A stretch of DNA of 64,000 nucleotides. Source: Chitinophaga caeni (GTDB lineage: Bacteria > Bacteroidota > Bacteroidia > Chitinophagales > Chitinophagaceae). How positions within the stretch are numbered: the stretch's first letter is position 1; each line of letters begins with the position of its first letter. The notes under the pieces were generated by a model. The model did no database searches and was not told the DNA's origin. It saw only the letters and a list, made by a program, of their open reading frames with translations. This document shows, one piece after another, positions 7,182 to 42,180 of this stretch. The DNA lies in NCBI RefSeq assembly GCF_002557795.1, contig NZ_CP023777.1, forward strand, positions 3,605,001 to 3,669,000, in the 5' to 3' direction. The position numbers were made by a program, and so were the translations under genes.

Positions 7182-7240
7182 GCTATTCTAAATTTATTTA
7201 TCTCCGCTGCTTCCTACTTGGAAGTCATAATTGTTCGAAA

Positions 7241-7288
7241 CCTGGTTATTCATGTTTAAGATATATAATTTTATCATGAATAACCAGG
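7241..7288. repeat. Inverted repeat at the left edge of the MITE array
   Basis: Perfect 14-bp arms CCTGGTTATTCATG (7241-7254) and CATGAATAACCAGG (7275-7288) around a 20-nt AT-rich loop. The right arm belongs to the spacer sequence of the adjoining tandem array; the left arm is an inverted fragment of the same spacer, extended outward by a shorter GTTCGA/TCGAAC pairing. It looks like a rearrangement scar rather than a terminator, as no T-run follows. Confidence 0.7.
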
Positions 7289-14002: not shown

Positions 14003-14347
14003 TTACTTTACAGAAGCAACGAGGCTTTTGAAAGTTTCTGGTTCATTCATAGCCAAGTCAGCTAATACTTTCCTGTTAAGATCAATATTCTTTTCAGAAA
14101 GTTTGTGAATGAACTCGGAGTATTTCATACCTTCCGCTCTAACTGCCGCGTTGATACGGGCGATCCAGAGCTGACGGTAATCTCTCTTCTTCAATTTACG
14201 ACCTACATAACTGTAAGTTAAACCTTTTTCAAGAACGTTCTTTGCTACGGTGTAAACATTCTTTCTTTTGCCATAGAAGCCTTTCGCTTGCTTCAAGATT
14301 TTCTTTCTTCTGGCCCTAGACGCAACTGCGTTTACGGAACGAGGCAT
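14003..14347 (-). CDS. rplT: 50S ribosomal protein L20
   Basis: 114 residues, full length. [60 protein letters not shown] and the rest match bL20 along its length. It binds 23S rRNA early in 50S assembly and, in enterobacteria, represses its own operon. It sits 32 bp behind rpmI as expected, but thrS-infC, which usually precede this pair, are about 27 kb away. Confidence 0.98.
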
Positions 14348-14379
14348 ATAATGCTGTTTTTAAATGTGTTAAAAATTAA

Positions 14380-14577
14380 TTAACGGAGGCGGAGCAACCT
14401 TTTAACCATGTTCAGGTTTGCATCACTTACCAAGCTGCTTCCTCTCAGGTGGCGCTTTCTTTTAGTGGCTTTTTTAGTCAACAAGTGACTTTTAAAAGCT
14501 TTCGGGCGCTTAATATTTCCGCTTCCGGTCACTTTAAACGTCTTTTTAGCACGGGAATGAGTCTTTACTTTGGGCAT
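14380..14577 (-). CDS. rpmI: 50S ribosomal protein L35
   Basis: 65 residues: [40 protein letters not shown] and a C-terminal MVKRLLRLR, the full bL35 sequence. First gene of an rpmI-rplT pair with its own putative promoter at 14598-14605. infC, the usual upstream neighbour, is not here. Confidence 0.97.
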
Positions 14578-14597
14578 CTTACATCAAATTTGGTCTG

Positions 14598-14605: not shown

Positions 14606-15009
14606 GGGAATGTTTTTAATATAACCCACACTCTGCTTAAAATATTTCTTTATGCTCGCAAATTTCTATAAAAAAGTTTAAAATCACAATCAATAATTAA
14701 TATATTGATACTCAATTACCATATTCCTATATCCATATCATATTAATATTAGTTATAGTATTAGGTTAAAAACATATTTGTTTAATTGCCATATTATTAT
14801 TAATTTTAATTTTAGATTGTCGAAAAATTGAACCATATCGAGTAAACCAATTACCTATGAAGACTATTTACACCACTGAATGTCAGGGTTTTGTATGCCC
14901 TATCCTGTATTGTCGATCGCAAACCTTTTTCTCATGGGGGGATCCCTTTACCCATTAATCCCATCCCCTCTATTCCGCTCAGAATTTTTCTAAAGAAATT
15001 ATTGGCTAA
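14606..15009. other. AT-rich intergenic region upstream of the giant gene
   Basis: About 400 bp, very AT-rich from 14640 to 14830 with imperfect repeats of TAATATTAG/ATATTATTA type, then more mixed sequence before the ATG at 15010. No gene is seen. A one-mismatch -7 box (CATATTTG) occurs near 14774-14781, but no convincing promoter can be named. It must hold the control region of the 20.7-kb gene. Confidence 0.45.
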
Positions 15010-18000
15010 ATGAGAAAATTTTTACGATTCCTATCCCTGATCCTTGTGTCCTTCGCAATGAAAGGATACGCGCAAACTCCTAGTTTTTCCGCGCCTACGA
15101 CCATATGTAAGGATAGTTATGCATCTATGCACGGTTTCTTTACCGGGAACCAAAGCCCTTCCAGCTATAGATGGACGATCACTGCCCCATCGGGATCCAC
15201 TACGGTGAACTACAGGTACGGCGACCAGAATAGCGAATCCATAACGGTTGATCTGACAGAAGTCGGAACATATAAGGTTGAACTGAGATTGCGCTACAGT
15301 GGTAATAATTATTACAAGACGAAATACATAACCGTCGAAGATTGCACGATTGAATCCTGTCTGGGTAGCTTCGTGAGTGATAAAAACTTCAAGGAAACTT
15401 TTGGAACCTTCGCCAGTGGCGAAGGTCGTCGTTCTTTAGACCCTACCATAATTAGCTATAACTATAACCAGTATGGCGACCTGGCTGATAACGATTACTC
15501 CATTTATTATAATACTAGAACAGGTGGTCGCCCTGAATGGGTAAACTCTGGTGACCATACCGGTGACACCCGCGGTGGTATGTTGATTGCCAACTCAAGT
15601 TATGATCCGCGTATGTTTTACACCCGCCGCGTTGACGGACTTTGTCCTGGCGCGGTTTATAACTTTACTGCCTGGTTCATGAACTTGAACCCATTGGAAG
15701 TGTTTGAAGGAACTTGTGAAAAGGATTACAAATACGCCGGGGTAACTTTTATTATCCGCAACGCTGCCAACGGTGCAGAGATCAAACGGTTTAATACCTA
15801 TGATGTTTCGATGGATCTCAGTGGTCCCGACTGGCAACAGTACGGGGGGAGTATCCGGCTTCAGCCGGGACAAGAGAGCTTGATCCTCGAAGTGGTCAAT
15901 AATAATCCGGGTGGATGTGGTAACGATATCGCGATTGACGATATCGCTTTCGAGTATTGTGCCCCCAAGATTTATTCTTATATCGATGGCTTGAGCTACG
16001 ATAAAGATGCGATTTGCCAAGGCGCCCCGATTACCCTGACTTCTGAAATTGAACCGATCAACTATTTCTTAGACCCTGTATACTACTGGGAAACGTCTAC
16101 TAACGGTACCACTTGGACACCCGTTAGCGGCGCAGGCTATACAGGCACGAATACACCTACATTAGACATTTCGGCCGGGGTACTCAACAGCGTAGGCACT
16201 TACTATTTCCGCTTGATGGTAAATGAAGATGGTAATAGTAATGCCTGCTACACCCCGTCCAATATGGTGACGCTTACCATTTTAGCGAAACCGCAAATCA
16301 CGGTTACGGAGCCCGTCATTTGTGAAGGCAACTCGACGATTCTAACGGTGAACCCGACGAATTACGATAGTTATTCTTTCACGGGCCCCGACATAACCTA
16401 CATCCCCGGCGTAGATTACCAGGTAAGTGTCAAACCCCCGGTTTCTTCTTCGTACAGTGTGACTGCCGTTGCCAACTATGGTAATGGCAAAAGTTGTTCT
16501 GAGACGGTATCAGCAAATATCCAGGTGGATAAAAAGCCCGTGGTAGACCTAGGGCCAGATTTGGATGTCTGTTCCGGTACCCCGATTACCCTGGATGCGG
16601 GCGATCAGAGCGGTTATGGTATTAACTGGACCTGGAGCGGAACTAGCTCCGGATCTGTAAGCGGGGGAGAAACCTTTACCCGCACATTTGCCCCGGGTAG
16701 TTATAACGTGAATGTTTTGGTTACAAATGGAACTTGTTCTACTGCTGATCAAGTCGCGGTAAATGTAAGCCCCGCCCCTACTGCTAATGCATTGCCTACC
16801 GGGACCCTCTGCGTTAATTACGCTTTGTTAAGAGCGGTTGCCGTGGCGGCGCCGAATGTTGGAACTTGGTCAATCGTAGGTAATGATTACGGTGCCGTTT
16901 TATCTCCAGCATCATTGCCTAACCAACAAAACATAAGCAACTTACCCCCGGATCAACCGGTGGTAGTCCGTTGGTCGGTTACAAATCCAAATTACCCGGA
17001 TTGTTCTGCTTTTAAAGATATCACCGTACTGTATAATGCGCCTCCGGGCCCTGCTGAGGCGGGCACGGCGCAAATTCAGTGTGGCTCCCGAACCTTTACG
17101 ATGAATGCGGACCCGATAGATGTAAACGACATCGGTACATGGACAACGGGAACTTCTGGCGTTACCATCGCCAGTATTAATGATCCGAATACCACGGTTA
17201 CATTAGCACCCGGGGTAAATGCAGCCACGCTTACTTGGACGGTAAGAAATAATAATAACTCCTGCGGATCTGTTTCAGATAACGTATCTCTTAGCATTCA
17301 AACGGCTCCAACCCTAGTTGTAGGAAGTGTTAGCGCGGTATGTATCGGTTCTGGCGGTACTACGGCATTAATTCCTTTCGTTGCAACAGGTAGCCCAACA
17401 TTATATGATCTACAAGCTACGGGTGCTAACCCGATGCCTGGTTTCACCGACTTGGCAGATCAACCGATGGTTGCCAGCCCGCTTAGCATGGCTATACCGG
17501 CAGGTACCCCCGCGGGAACTTACACCTTTACTATGACCGTTAAAAATGCAAACCCGGGATGTTCCGGCTCAGCTAATTTCACGGTAACGGTATCGGAAAG
17601 ATCTTCAACACCGATCATTGCTGCTCCCCCTGCTTCTATTTGTGAAGGCAACTCCGTGACTTTAAATGTTAGCGGTACGCTGGGAACAAGCGCTCAATGG
17701 GTGTGGTATGAAGGTGGTTGCGGTGTAGGAACCGCTATCGGTTCCGGTAGTTCGATAACTGTTACACCATCTGCAACTACAACTTACTATGTACGTTCTG
17801 AGAGTACAGGCGCTTGTGCCAATGATATTTGTACCAGTGTAACGGTGAATGTGGATGAAATGCCGGCAACCGTTTCAGCAGGCGCTGATCAAGAAAATTG
17901 TGATGATGCAACATTCACGATGAACGCAACCCCGGCCAGCGCGGGTACAGGTACCTGGACAATCGTCTCCGGTACGGCGACTATTGCTGATATCAATGAT

Positions 18001-21000
18001 CCTGCAACCGAAGTGACAGTTGCAGCCGGTAATACGGTAGTTTTAAGTTGGCAGGTTACCAATGGTACTTGTGCTTCCAACATTAGTAATGTTACCTTGA
18101 TCAACCGGGAATCATTAACAGGTAATTCCATCGGTTCGAATCAAAATATTTGCGAAGGTGATGCTGTTGCCGAAATAACCGGCACCGTGCCTTCCGGTGG
18201 TGACGGTACATATACCTACACTTGGGAAATGAGTACCACGGGCGCTTCCGGGCCATTTACCCCGATCGCAAGTGCAAATGGTCAAAATTATGATCCGGGT
18301 ACGATCACCCAAAATACCTGGTTCCGCAGGACGGTTACTTCCGGGGAGTGTACCAGTACCAGCAACGTGGTTGCCATCACGATTTATACCGGCAGCCCTG
18401 AAACAGCCACTGTTCTGTGGCCGCAAGATGCAGAATGTGATCCGGGAACTGATTACACTACCCTCTTCGGAAACCCGGTATTTACCCATCCTGATGGTGT
18501 GCCGTTTACAGTTGACCACCAGGACGTAACGGTACCTTTCGGTTGTGGCATACAAATTACCCGCACCTGGACTGCTACGGATGATTGCGGTAAAACCGGA
18601 ACCATTTCCCAAACAATCACTGTTAGGGATACACGTAAACCTACATTTAGTAATGTTCCCGCAGATGTAACGATTTCTTGCGAGGAAACCATTCCAGCTA
18701 TAGAAACGCCTACGGTAACGGATGAATGTACTACTGGTATCATTCCTGTATTTACTTCTTATATAATTGATGGAACGGAAGGTTGTGCTAATGATTATAC
18801 TTTAGTTAGGGTATGGACTGCAACAGATGCATGTAATAATACGGATTCTGTTCGCCAGGTGATAACGATCACGGACAATAAGTTGCCCGTATTTGTAAAC
18901 CCTCCTGCCGCCTACATCGAGGTAGAGTGCGATGCCGTTCCGGCTGTTCCTACTTTAACAGCTACGGATAACTGTGGTACCCCCGATGTTCAATATATGG
19001 GACAATCTACCACGGGCGATGCATGCAATACAACTATTACCCGCACTTGGAAAGCAACAGATGCTTGCGGTAATGCCGAATTATTTGTTCAAACAATCGT
19101 GGTGAAGGATGAAACGGCGCCGGAATTTACATTCGTTCCTGCCGATGTCACCGTTCCTTGTGGCACGGTTGTGCCGGTTGGTAACCCCACGGCGGTGGAT
19201 GCCTGCGGAACGGCGCATATTTCATTTGACGGGGATACCCGCGTAGATGGGTCTTGCCCGAATTCATACGAGATACACCGTAAATGGATCGTGGTTGATG
19301 ATTGTAATAATGAAAGGGAAGCTATCCAGGTGATCACCTTTGTTGATGATGTGGCCCCGGTGTTTGATAACGCCCCTGCCGATGCAACTTATAATTGCGA
19401 TGATGTTATTCCAAATAATACCGTTACCGCATCTGATAACTGTGGAACGGCAGTTGTTTCCTTGATTTCAAACAATACGATTCCCGGTGCTTGCCCCGGT
19501 TCCTACCAAATAGTTCGAACATGGGAAGCTGAAGACCAATGCGGAAATACAGCGACACATACGCAAACGATAACGGTAGAAGACAATGTTGCTCCTGTGA
19601 TCCAGGCTAAACCTGCCGACATCACGGTGGAGTGTAGCGCAATCCCTGCTGTACCAACCTTGACTGCTACTGATAACTGTGATGCGGATGTGCCGGTACA
19701 ATTAGTAAGTGAAACCACATCCGGCAGCGGTTGTAGTTATACTATCACAAGGGTTTGGAGAGCTACTGATGATTGTGGCAATTTTGATGAACATACGCAA
19801 GTTATTACTGTTGAAGATCATACAGCCCCGGTATTTGTAACGACACCTACTGCGATGTTAACGGTGGAATGTGATAATATTCCTGCGAGAGTATTATTAG
19901 ATGCTACGGATAATTGTGATACAGATGTAGAGGTGACTTTAGCAGATGATCTGATTACACCGGGTTCTTGTCCCGGTAATTATAATATTACCCGCACTTG
20001 GACCGCTACTGATGATTGCGGTAACTCGATCACTTTCTCGCAAATTATTACCGTTAATGATAACACTCCCCCGGTATTCGTTACTGTGCCTGACGATGTA
20101 ACGGTAGAATGCGATGAAGTAGTTCCTGTAGAATTACCAACGGTTCAGGATGCTTGTACGGGCGCTACAGTTTCACATGTCGGTGATTTTGATGATCCTG
20201 CTAACCCTGCTACTTGCGTGGGTTCCAGGAATGTAATACGCAGATTCAGGGCTGTTGATGAATGCGGCAACGAAGCCATTTACGATCAAAAAATTACTAT
20301 TGAAGATCATACGGCGCCAACAATCCCGAATTTCCCTGCCGATATCACGGTAGAATGCGATAACATCCCCGCCGTACCGACCTTGACGGCTACGGATATT
20401 TGCGATCCCGCACCGACCATCTCGCCCGTAAACGAGGTGAGCGAACCGGTATCTTGCTCTTACAAGATCACGCGTACCTGGACGGTAACGGACGCCTGCG
20501 GCAATACGCAGGACTTTACGCAAACGATCACGGTGGAAGACCATACCGCGCCGGTAATCACCAACGTACCCGCCGGTGTAACGGTGAACTGCGACGAGAT
20601 CCCCGCGCGCGTGGATCCCTTATTCACGGATAATTGCGACGCGGCGCCGGTAATGGTGTACGATACGGCGATCACCGCGACCAACGACGGTTGCGCAAAC
20701 AGCTACACGATCACGCGTACCTGGACGGTAACGGATGCCTGCGGCAACTCCGGCAGCCGTAGCCAGGTAATTAACATAATAGATACGAAAGCGCCCGTGT
20801 TCACGGTCACCCCACCGGCCACCCTGGACGTGCAGTGCGATGCCGTTCCAAGTGCAAGCTCGGCGGTACTGGAGGCCACGGATAATTGCGGCACCGCGCC
20901 GGTAACGATCCGCTACGTTGGCGAGGTAATCAGCAACCAGGACCCTGCCTGCCCCGGCAAGTACACGATCACGCGTACCTGGGAAGCGGAAGACGAGTGC

Positions 21001-24000
21001 GGCAACGTGCAGCAGTTCGTGCAGGTGATCCATGTGAGCGATGATACTGCCCCGGCCTTCGATAATGCCCCAGCCGATATCACGGTGGATTGCGATAACA
21101 TCCCGGCCGCCCCCGTAGTAACGGCAACAGACAACTGCGGCGCTGCCACGGTAGCTCCTGTTGACGAGCAACGCGTAGACGGAAGCTGCGATTATACCTA
21201 CACGCTGGTACGTACCTGGACGGCGCGCGATGCCTGCGGTAACGAGGCCACGCACGTGCAGCGCATCGAGGTGCAGGATAACACGGCGCCCGTGTTCAGC
21301 AACGAACCTGCTAACGTGACGGTAGATTGCGATAACATCCCGGCGGTACCGGCGGTAACGATCACCGATAACTGCGACCCTGCCCCTGTGCTTGATTTTG
21401 ACGAGACCGAAACGGCGGGCACCTGCCCGGTGGTGAGAATCATCACGCGCACCTGGACGGCCACGGATGCTTGCGGTAATACGAATACGCATACGCAGGT
21501 AATCACGGTGGAAGACCACACGGCCCCAACAATCCCGAATTTCCCAGCCGATATCACGGTAGAATGCGATAACATCCCCGCCGTACCAACCTTGACGTCT
21601 ACGGATATTTGCGATCCCGCACCGACCATCTCGCCCGTAAACGAGGTGAGCGAACCGGTATCTTGCTCTTACAAGATCACGCGTACCTGGACGGTAACGG
21701 ACGCCTGCGGCAATACGCAGGACTTCACGCAAACGATCACGGTGGAAGACCATACCGCGCCGGTAATCACCAACGTACCCGCCGGTGTAACGGTGAACTG
21801 CGACGAGATCCCCGCGCGCGTGGATCCCTTATTCACGGATAATTGCGACGCGGCGCCCGTAATGGTGTACGATACGGCGATCACCGCGACCAACGACGGT
21901 TGCGCAAACAGCTACACGATCACGCGTACCTGGACGGTAACGGATGCCTGCGGCAACTCCGGCAGCCGTAGCCAGGTAATTAACATAATAGATACGAAAG
22001 CGCCCGTGTTCACGGTCACCCCACCGGCCACCCTGGACGTGCAGTGCGATGCCGTTCCAAGTGCAAGCTCGGCGGTACTGGAGGCCACGGATAATTGCGG
22101 CACCGCGCCGGTAACGATCCGCTACGTTGGCGAGGTGATCAGCAACCAGGACCCTACCTGCCCCGGCAAGTACACGATCACGCGTACCTGGGAAGCGGAA
22201 GACGAGTGCGGCAACGTGCAGCAGTTCGTGCAGGTGATCCATGTGAGCGATGATACTGCCCCGGCCTTCGATAATGCCCCAGCCGATATCACGGTGGATT
22301 GTGATAACATCCCGGTAGCTCCCGTAGTAACGGCAACGGACAACTGCGGCGCTGCCACGGTAGCTCCAGTTGACGAGCAACGCATTGACGGAAGCTGCGA
22401 TTATACCTACACGCTGGTACGTACCTGGACGGCGCGCGATGCCTGCGGTAACGAGGCCACGCACGTGCAGCGCATCGAGGTGCAGGATAACACGGCGCCC
22501 GTGTTCAGCAACGAACCTGCTAACGTGACGGTAGATTGCGATAACATCCCGGCGGTACCGGTGGTAATGATCACCGATAACTGCGACCCTGCCCCTGTGC
22601 TTGATTTTGACGAGACCGAAACGGCGGGCACCTGCCCGGTGGTGAGAATCATCACGCGCACCTGGACGGCCACGGATGCTTGCGGTAATACGAATACGCA
22701 TACGCAGGTAATCACGGTGGAAGACCACACGGCCCCAACAATCCCGAATTTCCCTGCCGATATCACGGTAGAATGCGATAACATCCCCGCCGTACCGACC
22801 TTGACGGCTACGGATATTTGCGATCCCGCACCGACCATCTCGCCCGTAAACGAGGTGAGCGAACCGGTATCTTGCTCTTACAAGATCACGCGTACCTGGA
22901 CGGTAACGGACGCCTGCGGTAACACGCAGGACTTCACGCAAACGATCACGGTGGAAGACCATACCGCGCCGGTAATCACCAACGTACCCGCCGGTGTAAC
23001 GGTGAACTGCGACGAGATCCCCGCGCGCGTGGATCCCTTATTCACGGATAATTGCGACGCGGCGCCCGTAATGGTGTACGATACGGCGATCACCGCGACC
23101 AACGACGGTTGCGCAAACAGCTACACGATCACGCGTACCTGGACGGTAACGGATGCCTGCGGCAACTCCGGCAGCCGTAGCCAGGTAATTAACATAATAG
23201 ATACGAAAGCGCCCGTGTTCACGGTCACCCCACCGGCCACCCTGGACGTGCAGTGCGATGCCGTTCCAAGTGCAAGCTCGGTGGTACTGGAGGCCACGGA
23301 TAATTGCGGCACCGCGCCGGTAACGATCCGCTACGTTGGCGAGGTAATCAGCAACCAGGACCCTACCTGCCCCGGCAAGTACACGATCACCCGTACCTGG
23401 GAAGCGGAAGACGAGTGCGGCAACGTGCAGCAGTTCGTGCAGGTGATCCATGTGAGCGATGATACTGCCCCGGCCTTCGATAATGCCCCAGCCGATATCA
23501 CGGTGGATTGTGATAACATCCCGGTAGCCCCCGTAGTAACGGCAACAGACAACTGCGGCGCTGCCACGGTAGCCCCAGTTGACGAGCAACGCATTGACGG
23601 AAGCTGCGATTATACCTACACGCTGGTACGTACCTGGACGGCGCGCGATGCCTGCGGTAACGAGGCCACGCACGTGCAGCGCATCGAGGTGCAGGATAAC
23701 ACGGCGCCCGAGTTCAGCAACGAACCTGCTAACGTGACGGTAGATTGCGATAACATCCCGGCGGTACCGGCGGTAACGATCACCGATAACTGCGACCCTG
23801 CCCCTGTGCTTGATTTTGACGAGACCGAAACGGCGGGCACCTGCCCGGTGGTGAGAATCATCACGCGCACCTGGACGGCCACGGATGCTTGCGGTAATAC
23901 GAATACGCATACCCAGGTAATCACGGTGGAAGACCACACGGCCCCGACAATCCCGAATTTTCCAGCCGATATCACGGTAGAATGCGATAATATCCCCGCC

Positions 24001-27000: not shown

Positions 27001-30000
27001 GCCCCGGTATTTACCAGTGCTCCGGCTAACAAAACAATTGCTTGTACGGATCCGGTTGTTCCGGATGTGCCAACCGCGGTGGATAATTGTAGTGATGTGC
27101 GTATCCAGGAAACGAGGGTCGAAGTAAAAGGTAACTGTCCTGGTAATTACAGGGTCGTTTACACCTGGGTGGCCGTGGATGAATGTGGTAACGAGTCCGA
27201 TCCTATTCAACAAACGATCACCATCCGCGATACGGAAGCCCCGATCTTTACTTCCACTCCTGTAAATGAAAAAACGGTAGACTGTGATGCAGCGAATACG
27301 ATCGATCTTCCGGTTGCAACGGATAATTGCTCCGAAGTAAAATTAGAACGTAAAACCACTAAGAGCGATGATGAAGCTTGTAACGGTCATTATACGTTAA
27401 CACACGAATGGACCGCTACGGATTCATGTGGTAATAAATCATACTTTACCCAAATCGTTCACGTAGTAGATAATACAGCACCGGTAATCTCGGGTGTTCC
27501 TGCTGATACCAGGGTAAGGTGTAACGAAATACCAAGTTTTGCAACGGTGGTTATTTCTGATAATTGTGGAACGGCTACACTGAAAGATCATAGGGAGGAT
27601 AAAATTGCCGGTAGCTGCCCGAATGAGTATGTTTTGATCCGCACTTGGATCGCTGAAGATGAATGTGGTAACATCGACAGTGCGAAACAAAGAATCGAAG
27701 TATACGATGATCTACCACCGGTATTTAGCGGTGTGCCTGCCGATATGGATTTGAGTTGCGGTGCAATAGCTCCGTTGATCAACCCGACTGCTGCCGATCA
27801 ATGTGGTACTGTTGCTATCAGCTTTAAACAAGACACCTTGAAAGGCGCTTGCCCTGGCAACTACCAAGTGATTCGCACTTGGACTGCCACGGATGCCTGT
27901 GATAATGTAGATTCAGTGAAACAGGTATTAACATATACTGACACAGAAGGCCCTGCATTCTATAACGCCCCTGCCGATAGTACCATCAGTTGCGATAGAT
28001 TAGGCGATCCCGCACAACCTACCATCATCGATGCTTGTAGCGGAGTGATGGGTATCGTATTCGATACAAGGATTGAAAATGGATCTTGTGCAAACAATTA
28101 CACGGTAGTTCGTACTTGGACTGCAACCGATAGTTGTGGTAATGTATCTCAACACGTACAAAGGTTAACAGTCGCAGACGTAACACCGCCATTATTCAGC
28201 AATGTTCCTGTTGACAGGGATGCTAGCTGTGATAATATTCCTGCGCCTACAGATCCAACCGTGGCTGATAACTGTAGCCCGCTCGCCGGAATAGAACTTT
28301 CCATGCGCGTGGATACAATTAAAGGAAGTTGCGCAAACAATTATACATTGGTTCGTACCTGGATTGCTGAAGATGAATGTGGTAATATTGATTCTGTGAA
28401 ACAAAGAATCAGGGTTACCGATCTTACCAACCCTGTTTTACACGATGTTCCTGCTGATATTACATTGAATTGCGGTGATGTTATCCCGGTTGCCAATGTT
28501 ACCGCTACGGACAATTGTGGTACAGCCGAAGTTTCCATGACAGAAGCAAGAACCCCGGGCGCTTGCGCTGGTCAATACACGGTAACCCGTACCTGGACAG
28601 CTACGGATGCCTGCGGTAATACTTCTAAAGATGACCAGGTTATAACATTCGTAGATAATGTTGCACCGGTATTCGATCAAGTACTTTCCAACAAAACGAT
28701 CGATTGTTCTGAAACACCGGCGCCTGAGCATGTAACTGCCACGGATAATTGCGGAACAGTAACGATCACGATCGATTCTACTTATAGGGCGGGTACTTGC
28801 CCAACTAATTACACGAGGGTGTACATCTATACTGCAACAGATGATTGCGGAAACGATGTTACCATGGTTCAGGAAGTAAACGTGGTAGATACACAAGCGC
28901 CGCAATTTACAGTGGTGCCAGCCAGGGTTGCAATTAGTTGCGAGGAATGGCCGTACAGCAGTACAGCAGAAGCGGTTGATAATTGCGGCAACGTCACTAT
29001 GACAAGTAAGGATACTATCATTTCACGCACTTGTACAAACAGTTTCGTGGTAAGACGTACATGGACAGCCATAGATGAATGCGGAAATACCAGCACAGCG
29101 ACACAAGAAATTGAAGTAACCGATAACACGGCTCCTGTTTTACAGGGTGTGCCGGCCGATATAGATGTGAATTGTGACCAAGTTCCGGTTCCGGCCAGCG
29201 TTACTGCAACCGATGCTTGTGGAACCGCTACCGTTACTTACAACGAGGTGGTGTCTTACGAGTCATGCCCTGTATTGAGGGTATATACAAGGACTTGGAC
29301 AGCCACCGACGAATGTGGTAATTCAACTACTGCTAGCCAAATTATCAGGGTAATCGACAATCAAGCCCCTACTTTCAGCAATATTCCTGCTGATCAGACG
29401 GTAAGTTGCGATAACATTCCACCGATGGTGGCGCCAATAGCAGTAGATCTTTGTACCAATGTTACGATGACAAGCCGCGTAGATACTACCAGCAAATCTT
29501 GTAAACATACTTATGAATTGACACGCACTTGGATTGCCACAGATTCTTGCGGTAATATGGATTCCGTGAAACAAGTGATCCGTGTTCAGGATACGGAAGC
29601 GCCTAGGTTCTTATCCGCGACACCTGCTAATATCACGGTAGATTGCGAAAATATCCCGGCGCCGGCTAATATGGTGGCTATCGATAATTGCTCCGCAACA
29701 CCGGATATTATTGTTGAAGTGAAAGATGTTATTGAAACGATCCCGGGTGCTTGCGCCGGTAATTATGTCATCAAGCGCACTTGGACAGCAACGGATGAAT
29801 GTGGTAACGCGTTCAGTGTAACCCAGGAAATTACCGTACAGGATAATTCCGCCCCGACATTTACACTCGGCGCACCGGCAAACATTACCGTTGAATGTGA
29901 TGCAGTGCCTGCTATGCCTACTACCCTGCCCGTTAGCGATAACTGTAATCCTACAGGTCTAAACATCAAGGTAGAAGCTAAGGAAGAACGTGTTGACATC

Positions 30001-33000
30001 CCCGGTGCATGTAATAATACTTACCAGTTAATCCGTACCTGGATCGCATCCGATTCTTGTGGTAATGTTGATTCCGTGAAACAAATCATTACCGTAGAAG
30101 ATAGAACAGCGCCTGCTTTCGTAATCAATGTTCCGGCGAATATCACCTTGAGTTGTGATACGATCCTGGATCAACCGGATTATGAAGTAGTTGATAATTG
30201 TAGTCCTTTGACAGATATCACTGTTACCAAATCTCAAACTAGGGTTGATATCCCCGGTGCTTGTGCAAGCAATTATGAATTGCACCGCACTTGGACATTG
30301 ACAGATGCTTGTGGTAACAGCGCGGTAATCAACCAAGTGGTGACCGTTGTAGACACAACGAGACCCGTGTTCGATATCCCTGTTCCTGCCGATGTTACCG
30401 TTCAATGCGATAATATCCCTGCACAGGTGGATATCACGGCAACAGATAATTGCTCGCCGGCAACTGCAATTAATATTCAGAAAGATCAAAGACGTGAAGA
30501 TATTCCGGGCGCTTGTTCCGGCAACTACCGCCTGGTGTATACTTGGACTGCTACAGATGCTTGTGGTAACGACACCACCATTACGCAGGTAGTGACTGTC
30601 CAGGACACGACTAAACCGGTGTTCACGATGCCTTTACCGAAAGATACCACGGTAGATTGCCACGCGATCATTCCACAGGTTAATGTTTCGGTAACTGATA
30701 ATTGTACACCATCCGACAGCATAACGATCACTAAAAAAGCAAGGCAAGAAAAAGATCCGGGCGCTTGCGGACAGAACTACCGCATAATTTATACTTGGAT
30801 CGCCGCTGACCTCTGTGGTAATATTGATTCTGTTCAACAAGTTGTGACAGTCGTAGACACGACAGGCCCTGTATTTACAATCGATATCCCGAGCGATACA
30901 ACCGTTGATTGTGATAAAGTGCCGCCGATGGAAGCCTTGAACGTGATCGATAACTGTTCTCAACCGAACAAGATCCATGTAGACAGGCATGAAGAAAGGG
31001 TTGAAATCCCGGGTGCTTGTAAAAACAACTATAAATTAATCCGTACCTGGATTGCAACGGACGAGTGTGGTATGACTAGTGTAAAAGTTCAAACAATCAC
31101 AGTTCAGGATACAACAAGGCCGCAGTTTATAGGTACGCTTCCGGTTGATATGACTATCAACTGTGATGAAACATTACCGCCGCAGGAAGATCTTACCGCC
31201 GCTGACAATTGCTCTTTGGCTGCTTGGGTTGAAAAATCCGAATCCCGCCAGGACGGTAGCTGCCCGCAAAGTTCGATCATCACCCGTAGGTGGATCGCTT
31301 ACGATAGCTGCGGTAATTCAAGGGAATATGTACAGGTTATCACCATACAGGATACAACAAGGCCTGTATTACAAACTCCGCCTGCCGATATTACCGTTTC
31401 ATGCGATGCGATCCCTGCACAAGTAGATCTAACAGCTACAGATAACTGTACGCCAACAGCAGGTATCATCATTGATAAACATGTACGTGAAATACCGAAT
31501 ACTACCGGAAATTGTGCTGATGGTTACCAATTGGTATATACTTGGGTGGCTACGGATCAATGTAATAACATTGATAGTGTATCGCAGGTGATCACGGTTA
31601 TTGATGATGTTAAACCGAGGTTCACGATGGAAATTCCGGCTGATACTACAGTATCTTGCGATGCGATTCCTACGGCTCCTACCCTTACAGCTGTTGATGA
31701 TTGTGGCAGCATTAGCGATGTGCCTGTTATTTCAAGGGATTCTGTTGTACAAACTCCGAACGCTTGCCCGACCAAGTACATCATCTTCCGTAAATTCATC
31801 GCAACCGATGCTTGCGGTAATGAAGCCGTAGCAATTCAACAGATCATGGTTCAGGATACAACCAGCCCTGTGTTCAACCTTCCTTTACCAAGTGATACGA
31901 CCGTTGATTGCCATAGCATACCTCCGGTTGCAGCAGTATCGGTTACAGATAACTGTACACCTACAGCTGAAATAAGGTGGGAAATGAAAGATAGCACTTA
32001 CAAAGCGCCGGATGCTTGCGGTGAAAACTACACCATATACCGCATCTGGAGAGCTTACGATGCTTGCGACAGGATGGCTGAGCATATCCAGGTTATCACC
32101 GTGAAAGACACGACAGGTCCGGAATTTATCGATCCTGTACCGGCAGATACCTTGATTCAATGCGGTGATTTACCGCCATTTGCTGAATTACACGCGATTG
32201 ATAATTGTTCCCAACCGAACAAGATCTACGTTACACGTAGTCAAACCAAGGAGCCATTAGCTGATGGTTGCGGATTTAAATATACCCGTACTTGGATCGC
32301 GATAGATGCTTGCCAGAATAAAACGGAAAGGAAACAGGTCATTATCGTTTCAGATACTACCCGCCCTGTAATCTTAACCGCCATCAATGATATCACTGTC
32401 GAATGCTCACAAGTGCCTGATACCTTGGCGATCCAAGCGACCGATAACTGTACACCTACTGACAGTATCTCGGTAGAAGTGATAGACAACTTCGCTTCTG
32501 ACGGAACTTGCGGCAACATGACGATTACCAGGTGGTATATAGCGACAGATAAATGCGGTAATAGCGATACCGCTATCCAGGTGATTCACTTGGTAGATAA
32601 CACGATGCCGGTGTTTGATCAACCTGCACCTACAGACATACAAGTGAACTGTAACGAAGTGCCTGCTGCGCAAACATTCACAGCAACGGATGCATGTAGC
32701 GGACAAAGCGTTCCCGTAACTATGAATGAGACCAGGGTTGACTTGCCGGGCGCTTGTCCGAGCCTGTACCAGGTTATCAGGACATGGACCGCATCAGATA
32801 TCTGTAACAATGTTGCGACTGTAAGACAAATCATCACCGTTATCGATACAACCGGGCCGGTATTCATCAACCGTCCACAGGAAGAAATACACGCTTCATG
32901 CGATAATATTCCTGCACCTGTAAACTTAACGGCAACTGATGCTTGCAGCGGTAACTCTTACGATGTTACGCCATCAGATAATATCGTACCGGGTAATTGT

Positions 33001-35673
33001 AAAAATAGTTACACGATCCTACGTACTTGGGTTGCAACCGATGATTGCGGAAACAGGACAGAAATTGTTCAAAGCATTATCGTTGAAGATACCGAAGCGC
33101 CTGTATTAGATGTAAGCAATATTGCCGCTATCATCAATACAGATTGTAACAACATCCCTGCACCGGATACGATCCCGGCAACGGATAATTGCGCGGCCGC
33201 CCAGGATATTCAAGTTGAAATAACAATTGAAAACAAGCAGAACGGCGCCAACTGTGCCAACGGTATGCAGATCATCAGGACTTATACCGCGGTAGATGAA
33301 TGCGGCAACAGGTCCGTGCCATTCGTTCAAACAATCAATGTAGTTGATAACACCGCCCCTGTTTGGGTTATAGCACCGCCTGCTTCGGATACCACTGTTA
33401 ACTGTAGCGATACATTAGTAGTACCGGTTGTTACAGCGACGGATGCATGTTCAGGTGATATCGATGTGGTGTATACTACTAACAAAGTAAGTACGGCCTG
33501 CGGCTTTATTATCACCCGCAGGTGGGTTGCCGCTGATGCTTGCGGAAATATGATTACCGCAACACAAACAGTTACGGTAACCGATCTTGCGGCGCCGGTA
33601 TTCAATACTAATTTACAGGATACCTTGTATGCCGATTGCACGATCCCTGCTGTTGCAGCAGTAACAGCGACGGATAATTGCAGCCCGGCTGACTCGATCC
33701 AGTACGGATATAGCGAACAAGTAGACTCTATCAACGGCGCTTGTCATTATCAAATAAAACGCACTTGGACGGCCACCGATCCTTGCGGTAACGTTGCAAC
33801 AATGGAGCAACTAGTGATTATCCAGGATACTACGGCGCCTGTAATTGCAGCTGCACCTGCTGATATCACGATTGGTTGTGGTGATGCGATCCCTGCTGCC
33901 GCCCAATTGGTAGCTACGGATAATTGCTCAAATAACTTCCCGAGAATGGCAGCAATGACCGAAGATCCGTACACGGTTGATAATTGCAATGGTTATACAA
34001 TCGTCAGGAGATGGAATGCAGTAGATAAATGTGGTAATGTTGCGGTTGAGCAGGTACAAAGAATCGTGGTTCAAGGTTGTGGTCAACCGGAACTCGATAC
34101 TACTATGCCAGCTGCTTGTGCAAGCAACCCTGTATTCACGGTTACGGCCAAAGGAAATCTACAGAACCCGATATATACGTTGGTATCTGTAACACCTGCC
34201 GGAGCAGTTACTACGCCGGTATCACAAACGGACAACGTATTTAACTTACCGGGTGTAACAACGGCTACCTTTACCGTGAAAGATGGCCAAGACGGATGTG
34301 AAAGCGCCCCTGTAACTTATACTTTACAGTTCAAACAAGCGCCATCTGTTTACTTGGGTAATGATATCACGATCTGTAGCGCTGAAACGGTAACACTTGA
34401 TGCCGGAAATCAAAACAGTACATACCAAATTAAGTGGTCAACTGGCGAAACCAGCCAGAAGATCCAGGTAACGACTGCCGGTAAATATTGGGTTGAAGTA
34501 AGCAACGGTGATTGCGTAGCCAGCGATACGATCCAAATCGATCTTGGTAATCTGCAACATGAAGACATTCCAGATGCAGTCATTTGTACCGGTTATACTA
34601 AGAACTTGGATGCCTTTACCGAAAATGCAAGCTATGTTTGGAGTACAGGTTCTACCGCTTCTAACATTAATGTAAATACAGCCGGCAAGTACTGGGTACG
34701 TATCATGAAAGGAAGCTGTATCGTGGTTGATACCATCAACGTAACCGTTGTGCCGCCACCGAGCTTAGTATTGCCTCCTGATACTACTATTTGCCCGAAT
34801 TCTTCGATCGTGATTACAGCCATCACAAATGCAAATACTATACAGTGGTCAAGCGGGGAAAGTACTCCATCGATCGTTGTCAACAAACCAGGTTCTTACA
34901 CGGTATACGTTAGTAACGGTGCTTGCGTAGTATCTTCCACGATCTATGTACAGCAAAGACCAACGGTTACCTTGAACCTCGGTCCTGACAGGTACCTCTG
35001 TCCTGGCGGCAGGATCAACGTGGATGCCCGCACAGATGATGCCAGCTCTTACTTGTGGAATGACGGTAATACCAACCCGATCAAAGTGTTCACGCAACCG
35101 GGTACCTATATCCTTACGATCCTGGATAAATACTGCGACCGGGTAATTGCTGACACCTTGAATGTCTTCGAAGGCGCTACGCCGAATGTGAGCTTAGGCA
35201 ATGATACCGTGATTTGTGCAGGAACAAGTATCGTTCTGAAACCAAAAACGGCATTCGTGAGCAATTACCTTTGGAGTGATGGTTCTACCGGGAGCACCTT
35301 GACCGTTACGCAACCGGGTACTTATACTGTACAGGTGAGCAATGACTGCGGTTTCTCCCAGGATCAGATCACGATCACGGGCGTAGTTTGCGAATCTGCC
35401 CCGGAAATACCGAACGTATTCTCACCGAACGGAGATGGTAAGAATGATATATTCAAACCGGGAACCGGGGAAACGATGTACAACTATGAATTAAGAATCT
35501 ATAACCGCTGGGGTCAAATGATCTTCATCTCGCATGACCAGGAACAAGGTTGGGATGGAACATATAATGGTCAACCGGTTGAAATAGGTACTTATGTTTG
35601 GTGGTTGAGTTACAGTAAGACTTCCGGCGGACAGATTTACGTTATCAAGGGAGATGTAACCGTAATAAGATAG
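15010..35673 (+). CDS. Giant secreted HYR-repeat protein with T9SS type B (gliding-motility) C-terminal domain
   Basis: One uninterrupted frame of 6887 codons. Residues 1-22 are a signal peptide ending in KGYA. Then come a PKD/Ig-like domain (~25-110), a lectin- or CBM-like region (~116-320, with AIDDIAFEYC typical of jelly-roll ends), several Ig/PKD-like domains to ~1180, and about 65 HYR-like modules of ~80 residues between ~1190 and ~6357. The module consensus is AP.F...PAD.TV.CD.IP....TATDNC......SC...Y.I.RTWTATD.CGN...Q.I.V.D, normally with four cysteines. Next are about five 75-85-residue PKD-like repeats (WSTG.T, G.Y.V.VS.G.C) and a gliding-motility C-terminal domain: IPNVFSPNGDGKNDIF, LRIYNRWGQMIF, GTYVWWL. 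Secretion by the type IX system and attachment at the cell surface are inferred. Likely an adhesin or surface filament; ligand unknown. Confidence 0.93.
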   Translation: MRKFLRFLSLILVSFAMKGYAQTPSFSAPTTICKDSYASMHGFFTGNQSPSSYRWTITAPSGSTTVNYRYGDQNSESITVDLTEVGTYKVELRLRYSGNNYYKTKYITVEDCTIESCLGSFVSDKNFKETFGTFASGEGRRSLDPTIISYNYNQYGDLADNDYSIYYNTRTGGRPEWVNSGDHTGDTRGGMLIANSSYDPRMFYTRRVDGLCPGAVYNFTAWFMNLNPLEVFEGTCEKDYKYAGVTFIIRNAANGAEIKRFNTYDVSMDLSGPDWQQYGGSIRLQPGQESLILEVVNNNPGGCGNDIAIDDIAFEYCAPKIYSYIDGLSYDKDAICQGAPITLTSEIEPINYFLDPVYYWETSTNGTTWTPVSGAGYTGTNTPTLDISAGVLNSVGTYYFRLMVNEDGNSNACYTPSNMVTLTILAKPQITVTEPVICEGNSTILTVNPTNYDSYSFTGPDITYIPGVDYQVSVKPPVSSSYSVTAVANYGNGKSCSETVSANIQVDKKPVVDLGPDLDVCSGTPITLDAGDQSGYGINWTWSGTSSGSVSGGETFTRTFAPGSYNVNVLVTNGTCSTADQVAVNVSPAPTANALPTGTLCVNYALLRAVAVAAPNVGTWSIVGNDYGAVLSPASLPNQQNISNLPPDQPVVVRWSVTNPNYPDCSAFKDITVLYNAPPGPAEAGTAQIQCGSRTFTMNADPIDVNDIGTWTTGTSGVTIASINDPNTTVTLAPGVNAATLTWTVRNNNNSCGSVSDNVSLSIQTAPTLVVGSVSAVCIGSGGTTALIPFVATGSPTLYDLQATGANPMPGFTDLADQPMVASPLSMAIPAGTPAGTYTFTMTVKNANPGCSGSANFTVTVSERSSTPIIAAPPASICEGNSVTLNVSGTLGTSAQWVWYEGGCGVGTAIGSGSSITVTPSATTTYYVRSESTGACANDICTSVTVNVDEMPATVSAGADQENCDDATFTMNATPASAGTGTWTIVSGTATIADINDPATEVTVAAGNTVVLSWQVTNGTCASNISNVTLINRESLTGNSIGSNQNICEGDAVAEITGTVPSGGDGTYTYTWEMSTTGASGPFTPIASANGQNYDPGTITQNTWFRRTVTSGECTSTSNVVAITIYTGSPETATVLWPQDAECDPGTDYTTLFGNPVFTHPDGVPFTVDHQDVTVPFGCGIQITRTWTATDDCGKTGTISQTITVRDTRKPTFSNVPADVTISCEETIPAIETPTVTDECTTGIIPVFTSYIIDGTEGCANDYTLVRVWTATDACNNTDSVRQVITITDNKLPVFVNPPAAYIEVECDAVPAVPTLTATDNCGTPDVQYMGQSTTGDACNTTITRTWKATDACGNAELFVQTIVVKDETAPEFTFVPADVTVPCGTVVPVGNPTAVDACGTAHISFDGDTRVDGSCPNSYEIHRKWIVVDDCNNEREAIQVITFVDDVAPVFDNAPADATYNCDDVIPNNTVTASDNCGTAVVSLISNNTIPGACPGSYQIVRTWEAEDQCGNTATHTQTITVEDNVAPVIQAKPADITVECSAIPAVPTLTATDNCDADVPVQLVSETTSGSGCSYTITRVWRATDDCGNFDEHTQVITVEDHTAPVFVTTPTAMLTVECDNIPARVLLDATDNCDTDVEVTLADDLITPGSCPGNYNITRTWTATDDCGNSITFSQIITVNDNTPPVFVTVPDDVTVECDEVVPVELPTVQDACTGATVSHVGDFDDPANPATCVGSRNVIRRFRAVDECGNEAIYDQKITIEDHTAPTIPNFPADITVECDNIPAVPTLTATDICDPAPTISPVNEVSEPVSCSYKITRTWTVTDACGNTQDFTQTITVEDHTAPVITNVPAGVTVNCDEIPARVDPLFTDNCDAAPVMVYDTAITATNDGCANSYTITRTWTVTDACGNSGSRSQVINIIDTKAPVFTVTPPATLDVQCDAVPSASSAVLEATDNCGTAPVTIRYVGEVISNQDPACPGKYTITRTWEAEDECGNVQQFVQVIHVSDDTAPAFDNAPADITVDCDNIPAAPVVTATDNCGAATVAPVDEQRVDGSCDYTYTLVRTWTARDACGNEATHVQRIEVQDNTAPVFSNEPANVTVDCDNIPAVPAVTITDNCDPAPVLDFDETETAGTCPVVRIITRTWTATDACGNTNTHTQVITVEDHTAPTIPNFPADITVECDNIPAVPTLTSTDICDPAPTISPVNEVSEPVSCSYKITRTWTVTDACGNTQDFTQTITVEDHTAPVITNVPAGVTVNCDEIPARVDPLFTDNCDAAPVMVYDTAITATNDGCANSYTITRTWTVTDACGNSGSRSQVINIIDTKAPVFTVTPPATLDVQCDAVPSASSAVLEATDNCGTAPVTIRYVGEVISNQDPTCPGKYTITRTWEAEDECGNVQQFVQVIHVSDDTAPAFDNAPADITVDCDNIPVAPVVTATDNCGAATVAPVDEQRIDGSCDYTYTLVRTWTARDACGNEATHVQRIEVQDNTAPVFSNEPANVTVDCDNIPAVPVVMITDNCDPAPVLDFDETETAGTCPVVRIITRTWTATDACGNTNTHTQVITVEDHTAPTIPNFPADITVECDNIPAVPTLTATDICDPAPTISPVNEVSEPVSCSYKITRTWTVTDACGNTQDFTQTITVEDHTAPVITNVPAGVTVNCDEIPARVDPLFTDNCDAAPVMVYDTAITATNDGCANSYTITRTWTVTDACGNSGSRSQVINIIDTKAPVFTVTPPATLDVQCDAVPSASSVVLEATDNCGTAPVTIRYVGEVISNQDPTCPGKYTITRTWEAEDECGNVQQFVQVIHVSDDTAPAFDNAPADITVDCDNIPVAPVVTATDNCGAATVAPVDEQRIDGSCDYTYTLVRTWTARDACGNEATHVQRIEVQDNTAPEFSNEPANVTVDCDNIPAVPAVTITDNCDPAPVLDFDETETAGTCPVVRIITRTWTATDACGNTNTHTQVITVEDHTAPTIPNFPADITVECDNIPAVPTLTATDICDPAPTISPVNEVRETESCAYRIFRTWTVTDACGNTQDFTQTITVRDQTAPVFTNVPADVTVECDQIPARIDPVITDNCDANPVVTYDTSFVTSGCQIIITRRWQATDKCGNNDAVEQVITVVDNTAPSFPTPFPELTVECDEIPARVNPVATDNCGAIPSVNFLGEEITNKTCEHNYTITRRWEAVDECDNGATIEQVIHVVDNSIPTFDNAPADITIECGPLPAVPVVTASDRCDPPTVTYLGETEISRTCDYNYVVERKWSAVDDCGNEIIHTQRITVEDHTAPVLSGLPIDQTVSCDNIPAVPVVTANDACAGVLDVDFSEHRENQTCANGYTLVRTWRAEDPCGNVVEETRRITVVDNIAPVFSNVPANVTVSCDNIPAVQTPTVTDNCSVNIVPVFNENRIDGSCPNTYTIVRTWTATDECGNSATATQTIEVEDTEAPVFDPATPVDLYGTCDNIPAPVTPVATDNCSAAVSIDLFEYIQNPRTCPGTYVIVREWTATDECNLQTVFTQYVHISDTEAPEFIFVPTNITLNCGDAMPPFVDAVATDKCSIVSLSYEDQRVDSCGGSYKIIRTWTAKDACDNESTATQTIRFIDNKPPVITGVPADAIVNCDAIPAKPTVYIVDECSGYTDSYDERREGDDCGYKLIRTWTATDDCGNVATKSYTLFVQDTSRPVIVGVTADVNTSCDNIPVPPTPTVTDNCDTDVEIQFTQVRVNGSCSGTYDLIRTWIATDDCNNKDTAIQRVHVTDVVAPVFDNAPADVNVTCESIPDGSGVTATDNCSLATTVTFTDVKKDELCLGTYTIERTYQAVDSCGNVATHVQEIFVRDDVAPQFVNFPADVEVSCDAIPVAPVLTAVDNCGTASAPTMTERTENQTCTGSYDLIRTWTTQDDCGNSTSRSQTIRVRDTKAPVISGLAVNKTVNCDQIPAVPVLVATDNCSPYTLTYDSTIVGSSCSYEIRRVWTATDECGNTSTRTQIIKVRDVVAPVFTSAPANKTIACTDPVVPDVPTAVDNCSDVRIQETRVEVKGNCPGNYRVVYTWVAVDECGNESDPIQQTITIRDTEAPIFTSTPVNEKTVDCDAANTIDLPVATDNCSEVKLERKTTKSDDEACNGHYTLTHEWTATDSCGNKSYFTQIVHVVDNTAPVISGVPADTRVRCNEIPSFATVVISDNCGTATLKDHREDKIAGSCPNEYVLIRTWIAEDECGNIDSAKQRIEVYDDLPPVFSGVPADMDLSCGAIAPLINPTAADQCGTVAISFKQDTLKGACPGNYQVIRTWTATDACDNVDSVKQVLTYTDTEGPAFYNAPADSTISCDRLGDPAQPTIIDACSGVMGIVFDTRIENGSCANNYTVVRTWTATDSCGNVSQHVQRLTVADVTPPLFSNVPVDRDASCDNIPAPTDPTVADNCSPLAGIELSMRVDTIKGSCANNYTLVRTWIAEDECGNIDSVKQRIRVTDLTNPVLHDVPADITLNCGDVIPVANVTATDNCGTAEVSMTEARTPGACAGQYTVTRTWTATDACGNTSKDDQVITFVDNVAPVFDQVLSNKTIDCSETPAPEHVTATDNCGTVTITIDSTYRAGTCPTNYTRVYIYTATDDCGNDVTMVQEVNVVDTQAPQFTVVPARVAISCEEWPYSSTAEAVDNCGNVTMTSKDTIISRTCTNSFVVRRTWTAIDECGNTSTATQEIEVTDNTAPVLQGVPADIDVNCDQVPVPASVTATDACGTATVTYNEVVSYESCPVLRVYTRTWTATDECGNSTTASQIIRVIDNQAPTFSNIPADQTVSCDNIPPMVAPIAVDLCTNVTMTSRVDTTSKSCKHTYELTRTWIATDSCGNMDSVKQVIRVQDTEAPRFLSATPANITVDCENIPAPANMVAIDNCSATPDIIVEVKDVIETIPGACAGNYVIKRTWTATDECGNAFSVTQEITVQDNSAPTFTLGAPANITVECDAVPAMPTTLPVSDNCNPTGLNIKVEAKEERVDIPGACNNTYQLIRTWIASDSCGNVDSVKQIITVEDRTAPAFVINVPANITLSCDTILDQPDYEVVDNCSPLTDITVTKSQTRVDIPGACASNYELHRTWTLTDACGNSAVINQVVTVVDTTRPVFDIPVPADVTVQCDNIPAQVDITATDNCSPATAINIQKDQRREDIPGACSGNYRLVYTWTATDACGNDTTITQVVTVQDTTKPVFTMPLPKDTTVDCHAIIPQVNVSVTDNCTPSDSITITKKARQEKDPGACGQNYRIIYTWIAADLCGNIDSVQQVVTVVDTTGPVFTIDIPSDTTVDCDKVPPMEALNVIDNCSQPNKIHVDRHEERVEIPGACKNNYKLIRTWIATDECGMTSVKVQTITVQDTTRPQFIGTLPVDMTINCDETLPPQEDLTAADNCSLAAWVEKSESRQDGSCPQSSIITRRWIAYDSCGNSREYVQVITIQDTTRPVLQTPPADITVSCDAIPAQVDLTATDNCTPTAGIIIDKHVREIPNTTGNCADGYQLVYTWVATDQCNNIDSVSQVITVIDDVKPRFTMEIPADTTVSCDAIPTAPTLTAVDDCGSISDVPVISRDSVVQTPNACPTKYIIFRKFIATDACGNEAVAIQQIMVQDTTSPVFNLPLPSDTTVDCHSIPPVAAVSVTDNCTPTAEIRWEMKDSTYKAPDACGENYTIYRIWRAYDACDRMAEHIQVITVKDTTGPEFIDPVPADTLIQCGDLPPFAELHAIDNCSQPNKIYVTRSQTKEPLADGCGFKYTRTWIAIDACQNKTERKQVIIVSDTTRPVILTAINDITVECSQVPDTLAIQATDNCTPTDSISVEVIDNFASDGTCGNMTITRWYIATDKCGNSDTAIQVIHLVDNTMPVFDQPAPTDIQVNCNEVPAAQTFTATDACSGQSVPVTMNETRVDLPGACPSLYQVIRTWTASDICNNVATVRQIITVIDTTGPVFINRPQEEIHASCDNIPAPVNLTATDACSGNSYDVTPSDNIVPGNCKNSYTILRTWVATDDCGNRTEIVQSIIVEDTEAPVLDVSNIAAIINTDCNNIPAPDTIPATDNCAAAQDIQVEITIENKQNGANCANGMQIIRTYTAVDECGNRSVPFVQTINVVDNTAPVWVIAPPASDTTVNCSDTLVVPVVTATDACSGDIDVVYTTNKVSTACGFIITRRWVAADACGNMITATQTVTVTDLAAPVFNTNLQDTLYADCTIPAVAAVTATDNCSPADSIQYGYSEQVDSINGACHYQIKRTWTATDPCGNVATMEQLVIIQDTTAPVIAAAPADITIGCGDAIPAAAQLVATDNCSNNFPRMAAMTEDPYTVDNCNGYTIVRRWNAVDKCGNVAVEQVQRIVVQGCGQPELDTTMPAACASNPVFTVTAKGNLQNPIYTLVSVTPAGAVTTPVSQTDNVFNLPGVTTATFTVKDGQDGCESAPVTYTLQFKQAPSVYLGNDITICSAETVTLDAGNQNSTYQIKWSTGETSQKIQVTTAGKYWVEVSNGDCVASDTIQIDLGNLQHEDIPDAVICTGYTKNLDAFTENASYVWSTGSTASNINVNTAGKYWVRIMKGSCIVVDTINVTVVPPPSLVLPPDTTICPNSSIVITAITNANTIQWSSGESTPSIVVNKPGSYTVYVSNGACVVSSTIYVQQRPTVTLNLGPDRYLCPGGRINVDARTDDASSYLWNDGNTNPIKVFTQPGTYILTILDKYCDRVIADTLNVFEGATPNVSLGNDTVICAGTSIVLKPKTAFVSNYLWSDGSTGSTLTVTQPGTYTVQVSNDCGFSQDQITITGVVCESAPEIPNVFSPNGDGKNDIFKPGTGETMYNYELRIYNRWGQMIFISHDQEQGWDGTYNGQPVEIGTYVWWLSYSKTSGGQIYVIKGDVTVIR
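18637..34080 (+). repeat. HYR-like module array inside the giant gene (about 65 modules)
   Basis: Counting the linkers that end each module (V.D.TAP, V.DTTRP and similar) gives roughly 65 modules of 75-85 codons. Modules outside the 20.3-24.2 kb block differ clearly from one another at both DNA and protein level, so most of the array is old. Towards the 3' end (after ~29.6 kb) modules share an insertion with IPGAC or LPGAC and a P.DTTVDC start, pointing to a separate subfamily. Four cysteines recur per module: V.C, DNC, .SC/.AC and D.CGN. Confidence 0.85.
20321..24165 (+). repeat. Higher-order 1209-bp repeat (five HYR modules), three copies plus a partial fourth
   Basis: The landmark CAATCCCGAA recurs at 20321, 21530, 22739 and 23948, exactly 1209 bp (403 codons) apart. 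Each unit holds five HYR modules starting TIPNF, VITNV, VFTVT, AFDNA and VFSNE (or EFSNE). Copies 1 and 2 differ at about six residues of 403 and copies 2 and 3 at about five, by eye. The fourth copy keeps only the first module and drifts after ~24058. The block prefers ACG, GCG and CGC codons, unlike the ACT/ACA-rich modules around it. Confidence 0.95.
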
Positions 35674-42078: not shown

Positions 42079-42180
42079 TTAAAAAAATGAGAATTACTAA
42101 TTACAAATGTTGCGTCTTTTGTAGGATACCTATCAAAAAATGTAAAATACTACAAAAGAACGGAAATATATACAATCGAA

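Follow-up and report, generated by a model that had tools for sequence, protein, structure and literature searches.

A giant protein of Chitinophaga caeni, probably a surface adhesin of the type IX secretion system, from a genus-wide locus with varying stalks

Our study reports on a single gene of the soil bacterium Chitinophaga caeni, found within a window of 64,000 nucleotides (assembly GCF_002557795.1, contig NZ_CP023777.1, positions 3,605,001 to 3,669,000 of the forward strand), in whose numbering all positions below are given unless a genome contig is named. The gene occupies 15010..35673 on the forward strand, on which its parts and the leader elements also lie, and its product of 6887 residues (736.5 kDa, pI 4.1 and 300 cysteines, all computed) is probably a long, surface-tethered, carbohydrate-binding adhesin exported by the type IX secretion system (T9SS). 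We find that the locus is shared across the genus, that its two ends are retained, and that the stalk between them is built from different modules in different species. In kind the protein is ordinary, a giant type B adhesin made of known domains; what is unusual is its status as an orphan substrate, the exchangeable stalk, and a conserved short open reading frame (ORF) in its leader.

The bulk of the protein is an array of 64 contiguous modules (18616..34077, residues 1203-6356) preceded by a half module (18484..18633, residues 1159-1208). Searching the protein with a profile of its own modules recovers 65 stretches, the 64 full modules lying in unbroken register, which agrees with the estimate of about 65 HYR-like modules in the first-pass annotation, made from the letters of the window. 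The Pfam family HYR_4C (PF23237, 'HYR-like domain with 4 cysteines') matches two central pieces with E values of 1.8e-205 and 2.4e-121, modules passing the family cut-off, and every one of the 64 full modules holds exactly four cysteines, with a pitch of 76-86 residues (mean 80.4), a C1-C2 spacing of 15 in 55 modules and a C3-C4 spacing of 16 in 50. Across the genome all 56 single HYR_4C matches (E <= 1e-3) fall inside this one frame; the classical HYR model PF02494 has no match in the genome, and its control likewise matched nowhere. Modules 27-29 were modelled as immunoglobulin (Ig)-like. At roughly 4 nm per Ig-like module, 64 such modules, probably stapled by disulfides, would form a rod of the order of 200-300 nm, in keeping with the earlier suggestion of a reach well over 100 nm. 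A match of TT1_Tal to the repeat pieces (48.6 against a cut-off of 27 bits, no single stretch passing) was taken as compositional, like some other Pfam and NCBIfam matches.

The modules share a median pairwise identity of 39%, or 38% when recent copies are set aside. The recent copies are three tandem near-identical units of 1209 bp at 20311..23937, each of five modules (403 residues), which are 98.5-98.8% identical and differ pairwise by 15, 17 and 18 bases. This combination of mostly old modules with one recent tandem block suggests an array that is long-standing and still expanding through recombination. The presence of the three near-copies also raises the question of whether part of the frame could be an assembly artefact produced by repeat expansion, and the orthologous frame is interrupted in two relatives, at differing places. 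We consider an artefact very improbable: the three copies carry 15-18 mutual differences, the remaining modules are old (median identity 38%), and other species repeat the same architecture. The frame is a single uninterrupted one, as first read, in a genome assembled as a single contig of 5,279,921 bases with a completeness of 99.98%. The two interrupted frames, in G024 (L086/L087) and G032 (L091), break at different N-terminal places, through sequencing error or decay; phase variation acting at one common site was weighed as an explanation and dropped, because the breaks do not coincide.

Ahead of the array lie a putative signal peptide (15010..15072, residues 1-21, read by eye, with a helix at residues 2-16 in the model), an N-terminal beta domain (15076..15339, residues 23-110) that is Ig/PKD-like by inspection, has strands in the AlphaFold2 model and lay almost entirely outside the reach of the fold search, and the head (15364..15969, residues 119-320). 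The head was modelled with a pLDDT of 91 as a jelly roll of the carbohydrate-binding module (CBM) 4/16/22 type, an assignment made from the model and the fold search; W177, in one of its loops, is an invariant residue. Sequence comparison is more reserved: the CBM_4_9 profile gives no match to the head of the window at E <= 0.1, while matching 9 of 30 head rows at that threshold, and a search against PDB sequences returns one non-significant match for the head alone (E 0.23) and none for a head profile. A sugar-binding tip appears to be the best reading of the model, and it supports the proposal of a lectin-like domain around residues 116-320, the region that the first-pass annotation named as its best candidate for ligand binding. 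No convincing enzyme domain was found in the Pfam and NCBIfam scans of the protein, in line with the annotation, which saw nothing enzymatic in the repeats. The head is followed by a region of Ig_7 and PKD-like matches (15970..18483, residues 321-1158), which includes five matches of a module that is amplified in other species.

The same jelly-roll domain (34% identity) was also seen in a second giant type B gene of this genome, L185 (C1:4063064-4073905), which encodes 3659 residues from its ATG and has a DUF11 stalk of 20 stretches; its counterparts are frames of 3648-3667 residues in five relatives and 4188 in a sixth.

At the other end of the protein the type B T9SS sorting domain (35404..35664) scores 60.5 bits with TIGR04131 against a cut-off of 35 (66.2 bits in the genome search) and is also matched by CHU_C, so that the domain searches called for in the first-pass annotation return both the HYR-type modules and the T9SS C-terminal domain. 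The genome encodes one SprA translocon (2792.8 bits), and the predicted address to the T9SS is upheld. The C-terminal PKD-like stalk repeats described earlier (34333..35412) fare less evenly: PKD_4 reaches 29.5 against a cut-off of 27 for the whole piece, but no single stretch passes; a profile of the related module gives three weak matches there. We propose that the signal peptide would direct the protein through Sec, that the type B domain would take it through the SprA translocon, and that a PorP/SprF-type barrel encoded elsewhere would collect it and hold its C-terminus at the surface. The rod would then place the N-terminal jelly roll at the tip, where it could bind the polysaccharide of a surface, a neighbouring cell or a substrate.

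The genome has eight matches to PorP/SprF-type shuttles (seven over the cut-off) and 14 to the type B C-terminal domain (13 over the cut-off), the giant being the longest frame of the 14; its domain was compared with those of nine other type B genes, and two further ones were scanned separately. A PorP/SprF gene lies directly behind five of the 14 type B genes and not behind the giant: the shuttle model TIGR03519 has no match in the window, the nearest lying about 62 kb away. The seven shuttles, which do detect one another by BLAST, find no match in the fetched stretches of 14 relatives or of nine more added later, where the downstream flank searched was less than 0.5 kb for G018 and 1 kb for G004. 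Judged by its gene neighbourhood, the giant is thus an orphan type B substrate. Two shuttles are orphans in the same genome, at C1:617700-618662 and at C1:3426004. A different arrangement was noted at L190:954-13628, where a type B protein of 4224 residues is followed directly by a PorP/SprF gene; that protein matches LapA and Calx-beta above the cut-off set for a protein as a whole, with no single stretch passing.

An orphan shuttle might couple the giant to a moving track, making it a mobile gliding adhesin of Chitinophaga in the role of SprB. Its size resembles that of SprB from Flavobacterium johnsoniae, given as 6497 residues (PMC9870892) and about 200 nm (PMC12635249) in the parts of those papers available to us, and the genome encodes a GldK over the cut-off together with a GldJ-like protein. 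According to the accessible sections of a further study, three orphan substrates of F. johnsoniae are served by one orphan shuttle, and the C-terminal domain of one of these, Fjoh_1123, gives a subpopulation of foci on helical paths (PMC12618676). However, the GldJ-like protein lies under its cut-off, the stretches from the 23 relatives yielded no shuttle-like gene, and the SprB repeat PF13573 has no match, its control having likewise matched nowhere. Moreover, the available text on F. johnsoniae describes SprF as coupled to GldK and the moving track through a C-x-C tail (PMC12635249), and such a tail is present in none of our seven shuttles. Four of the seven (L184, L187, L189 and L193) end in CPRF, CPSF or CPRL, with a single cysteine four residues from the end, and the orphan shuttle at C1:617700-618662 is one that ends in CPRF, a shared feature that speaks for the gliding role. 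On balance we regard gliding as somewhat unlikely.

The protein may instead be a static adhesin for cell-cell contact, biofilm formation or attachment to chitin and other polysaccharides, held by a PorP-type barrel off the track. Chitinophaga is a genus of polysaccharide degraders, and the CBM-type head would suit such a use. In the same partly available study the type B domain of Fjoh_3952 anchors statically (PMC12618676). Against this, no result of the analysis points to the giant being static, and no PorP/PorE-type anchor genes adjoin it, PorE itself not having been searched for. A static role is possible while falling short of an even chance, and the choice between gliding and static use is close to even. 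A third explanation makes the protein a scaffold, an S-layer-like coat or a phage or predator spacer whose head docks only onto glycans of its own cell. Its length, the exchange of modules and the many further Ig-like domains fit this, but a conserved head at the end farthest from the anchor does not, and we think it improbable. Predation, which the first-pass annotation had listed among possible functions, finds no support in our analysis.

The head is present in all 35 other genomes of the genus searched, and in 39 of the 59 genomes searched overall, this one included. Of 100 confirmed loci 80 were kept as a named set, from which the record of C. caeni itself may be absent; the named matches point to Chitinophaga as the genus, the nearest being C. 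skermanii at 67% identity, and 53 of the 80 adjoin rpmI, the remainder being paralogues, contig edges and other genera. Loci were examined closely in 14 relatives, selected mainly for the length of their frames and contigs, and in nine added later, of which five gave closed frames, two (G034 and G015) ran open at the contig end and two (G012 and G023, a different head gene) were dropped. All 19 relatives with a closed frame have rpmI adjoining the giant gene. In the first 14, rplT and rpmI lie immediately upstream without exception, with serA downstream in nine and on the opposite flank in G006, whose block is inverted relative to its neighbours; serA was not seen in the locus stretches of G018, G017, G004 and G029. 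The five later closed frames all adjoin rpmI, four with serA downstream. In the window the ribosomal proteins L20 and L35 were confirmed with Pfam, and the name serA rests on 2-hydroxyacid dehydrogenase and ACT domains. By eye, the type B tail is the same in all 19 relatives, and CHU_C scored in both of those scanned with Pfam.

The pairs rpmI-rplT and infC-thrS are usually neighbours. In the window they lie 27 kb apart (14003-14580 and 41422-44121), separated by the giant gene and by serA-like, beta-lactamase-fold and cation efflux genes, and G014 has the same order.

Between these conserved ends the stalk changes. The comparison covers 20 closed frames (C. caeni, the first 14 relatives and the five later ones; for G024 and G032 the length is that of the larger piece of the broken frame), which range from 3181 to 6887 residues, from 6 to 65 HYR matches and from 6 to 47 matches of another Ig/PKD-like module. 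Eight frames (our own, G020, G014, G024, G035, G032, G004 and G007) have HYR stalks of 34-65 matches. Eleven others (G006, G018, G017, G033, G029, G001, G008, G030, G013, G009 and G019) have 15-47 copies of the other module and 6-7 HYR matches, which sit toward the C-terminus in the six frames with positions. G031 combines 16 HYR and 19 other-module matches within a larger repeated cassette, and our own protein has five matches of the other module ahead of its HYR array. The other module received no convincing Pfam name in the two proteins scanned, matches to CofC and some further families being ascribed to composition. When the stalk labels are placed on a tree built from three flanking genes in 15 genomes, two changes are required, and the switch may have had a single origin. 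The near-identical sister pair G017 and G018 carries 29 and 46 copies of the other module and differs in length by 1501 residues.

Among our own frame and the first 14 relatives, which were chosen mostly for long frames, length has a coefficient of variation of 0.16; the later closed frames measure 3181, 3450, 3446, 3443 and 4749 residues, and these shorter frames, together with the way the first 14 were selected, lead us to reject constant length as a law. As we read it, the locus is a genus-wide one and not a one-off, with a stalk module that is swapped between species, and the tip, the anchor and the large size appear to be what is kept while the stalk material is not. Selection would then retain tip, anchor and size, with the type and number of stalk modules turning over by recombination.

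The region upstream of the gene is conserved as well. At its 5' end (14785..14815) the leader carries an AT-rich block (..ATATTAT..TTAATTTTAATTT..) that emerges from alignments of 15 and 30 leaders, and a short ORF of 33 codons (14857..14958, MKTIYT...) with the start motif CCTATGAA..C..TTTAC.C is conserved across loci. A short ORF of 30-36 codons precedes the giant gene in all 53 rpmI-adjacent named loci, 52 matching the start pattern and one (L136, 33 codons) being read directly; in a second, overlapping set it is found in 28 of 28 rpmI-adjacent rows, window included, at 29-35 codons. Among the 27 other named loci, five have a version of it and four lie at contig edges. The 21-base start motif, with at most one mismatch, occurs in 20 of 36 genomes (19 of 23 Chitinophaga, this one included, and 1 of 13 others) at 23 places, 20 of them ahead of a head-bearing gene, as against 11 places for a reversed-pattern control in the same genomes; it is enriched and well placed, and not unique by sequence alone.

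In 51 overlapping pairs the short ORF has a ratio of non-synonymous to synonymous differences (pN/pS) of 0.61 when read in frame, compared with 0.84 and 0.93 when the frame is shifted. In 17 disjoint pairs, 58, 52 and 63 differences fall at the three codon positions (p 0.59), with no selection on the peptide detected, so that only the start and the length stand out. Under a crude null in which 8.6% of shuffled tails reach a stop at 30-36 codons, the conservation of length has a chance of about 2e-12 with loci clustered at 70% identity (11 clusters) and about 5e-6 at 65% (5 clusters); at 60% all loci form one cluster and no length conservation can be demonstrated, and lengths bunch, through relatedness, in both alternative frames that share this start as well. 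No Bacteroidota -7 box (TANNTTTG) turned up within the 258 bases upstream of the short ORF. As RNAalifold predicts no pairs across 30 sequences and no Rfam family matches, we do not offer a riboswitch-like reading of the leader; the short ORF may be a translated leader or a coupled short ORF.

Taken together, these observations lead us to put forward, as a tentative model that we hold to be less probable than its negation, an exchangeable mast: a genus-wide locus that retains its sugar-binding tip and its T9SS anchor, exchanges the stalk in its entirety between two kinds of module that are unlike each other, stays giant throughout (3181-6887 residues in 20 closed frames), and has its expression gated through the translation of a conserved leader ORF, about 30-36 codons long, that is kept for its start and length and not for its peptide. 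In the literature searched, outside which most subscription papers lie, we found no precedent for a giant T9SS adhesin under the control of a translated leader, and searches on HYR with T9SS or Chitinophaga, on giant genes and on leader ORFs returned nothing on this gene; the available part of a 2026 paper on C. pinensis morphology does not contain the term HYR (PMC13070061). One further repeat was noted in the window, where about 3.3 tandem copies of a 398-bp unit (7266-8594, 92% match) separate the rhomboid gene from tilS; the left edge of this array carries a small inverted repeat (7240-7289), and two ORFs inside the array have no Pfam match.

Giant type B adhesins were already known, mainly from one model organism. 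A single orthologous locus with conserved ends and an exchangeable stalk makes selection on reach testable, the question of which barrel carries the giant, and whether on the gliding track, can be addressed directly in Chitinophaga, and the upstream ORF offers a handle on how the cell decides to make a protein of 736 kDa.

Comparison with known systems places the protein most likely as SprB-like in design, without establishing it as a member of the SprB family. With SprB of F. johnsoniae, as described in the accessible literature, it shares huge size, repetitiveness, a type B T9SS domain and the design of a surface adhesin; it differs in having no adjoining sprF-like gene, in a genome without a C-x-C-tailed shuttle, in its HYR_4C stalk and its position beside rpmI, and in that no SprB repeat was matched, the control being silent as well. 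The orphan type B substrates of F. johnsoniae, from what the available text gives, likewise carry a type B domain and lack an adjoining PorP/SprF gene. For the head, the nearest known systems are CBM4-2 of the Rhodothermus marinus xylanase and the related CBM16, 22 and 61; the head is 14% identical to CBM4-2, has additional loops and lacks an attached enzyme. The top solved-structure match of the modules is SraP, the staphylococcal serine-rich adhesin (4m00, 4m03), in which beta domains likewise form the stalk of an adhesin. Through its 64 modules the giant belongs with the HYR_4C proteins (PF23237), from which it differs in its length and in that a second type of module takes their place at this locus in other species.
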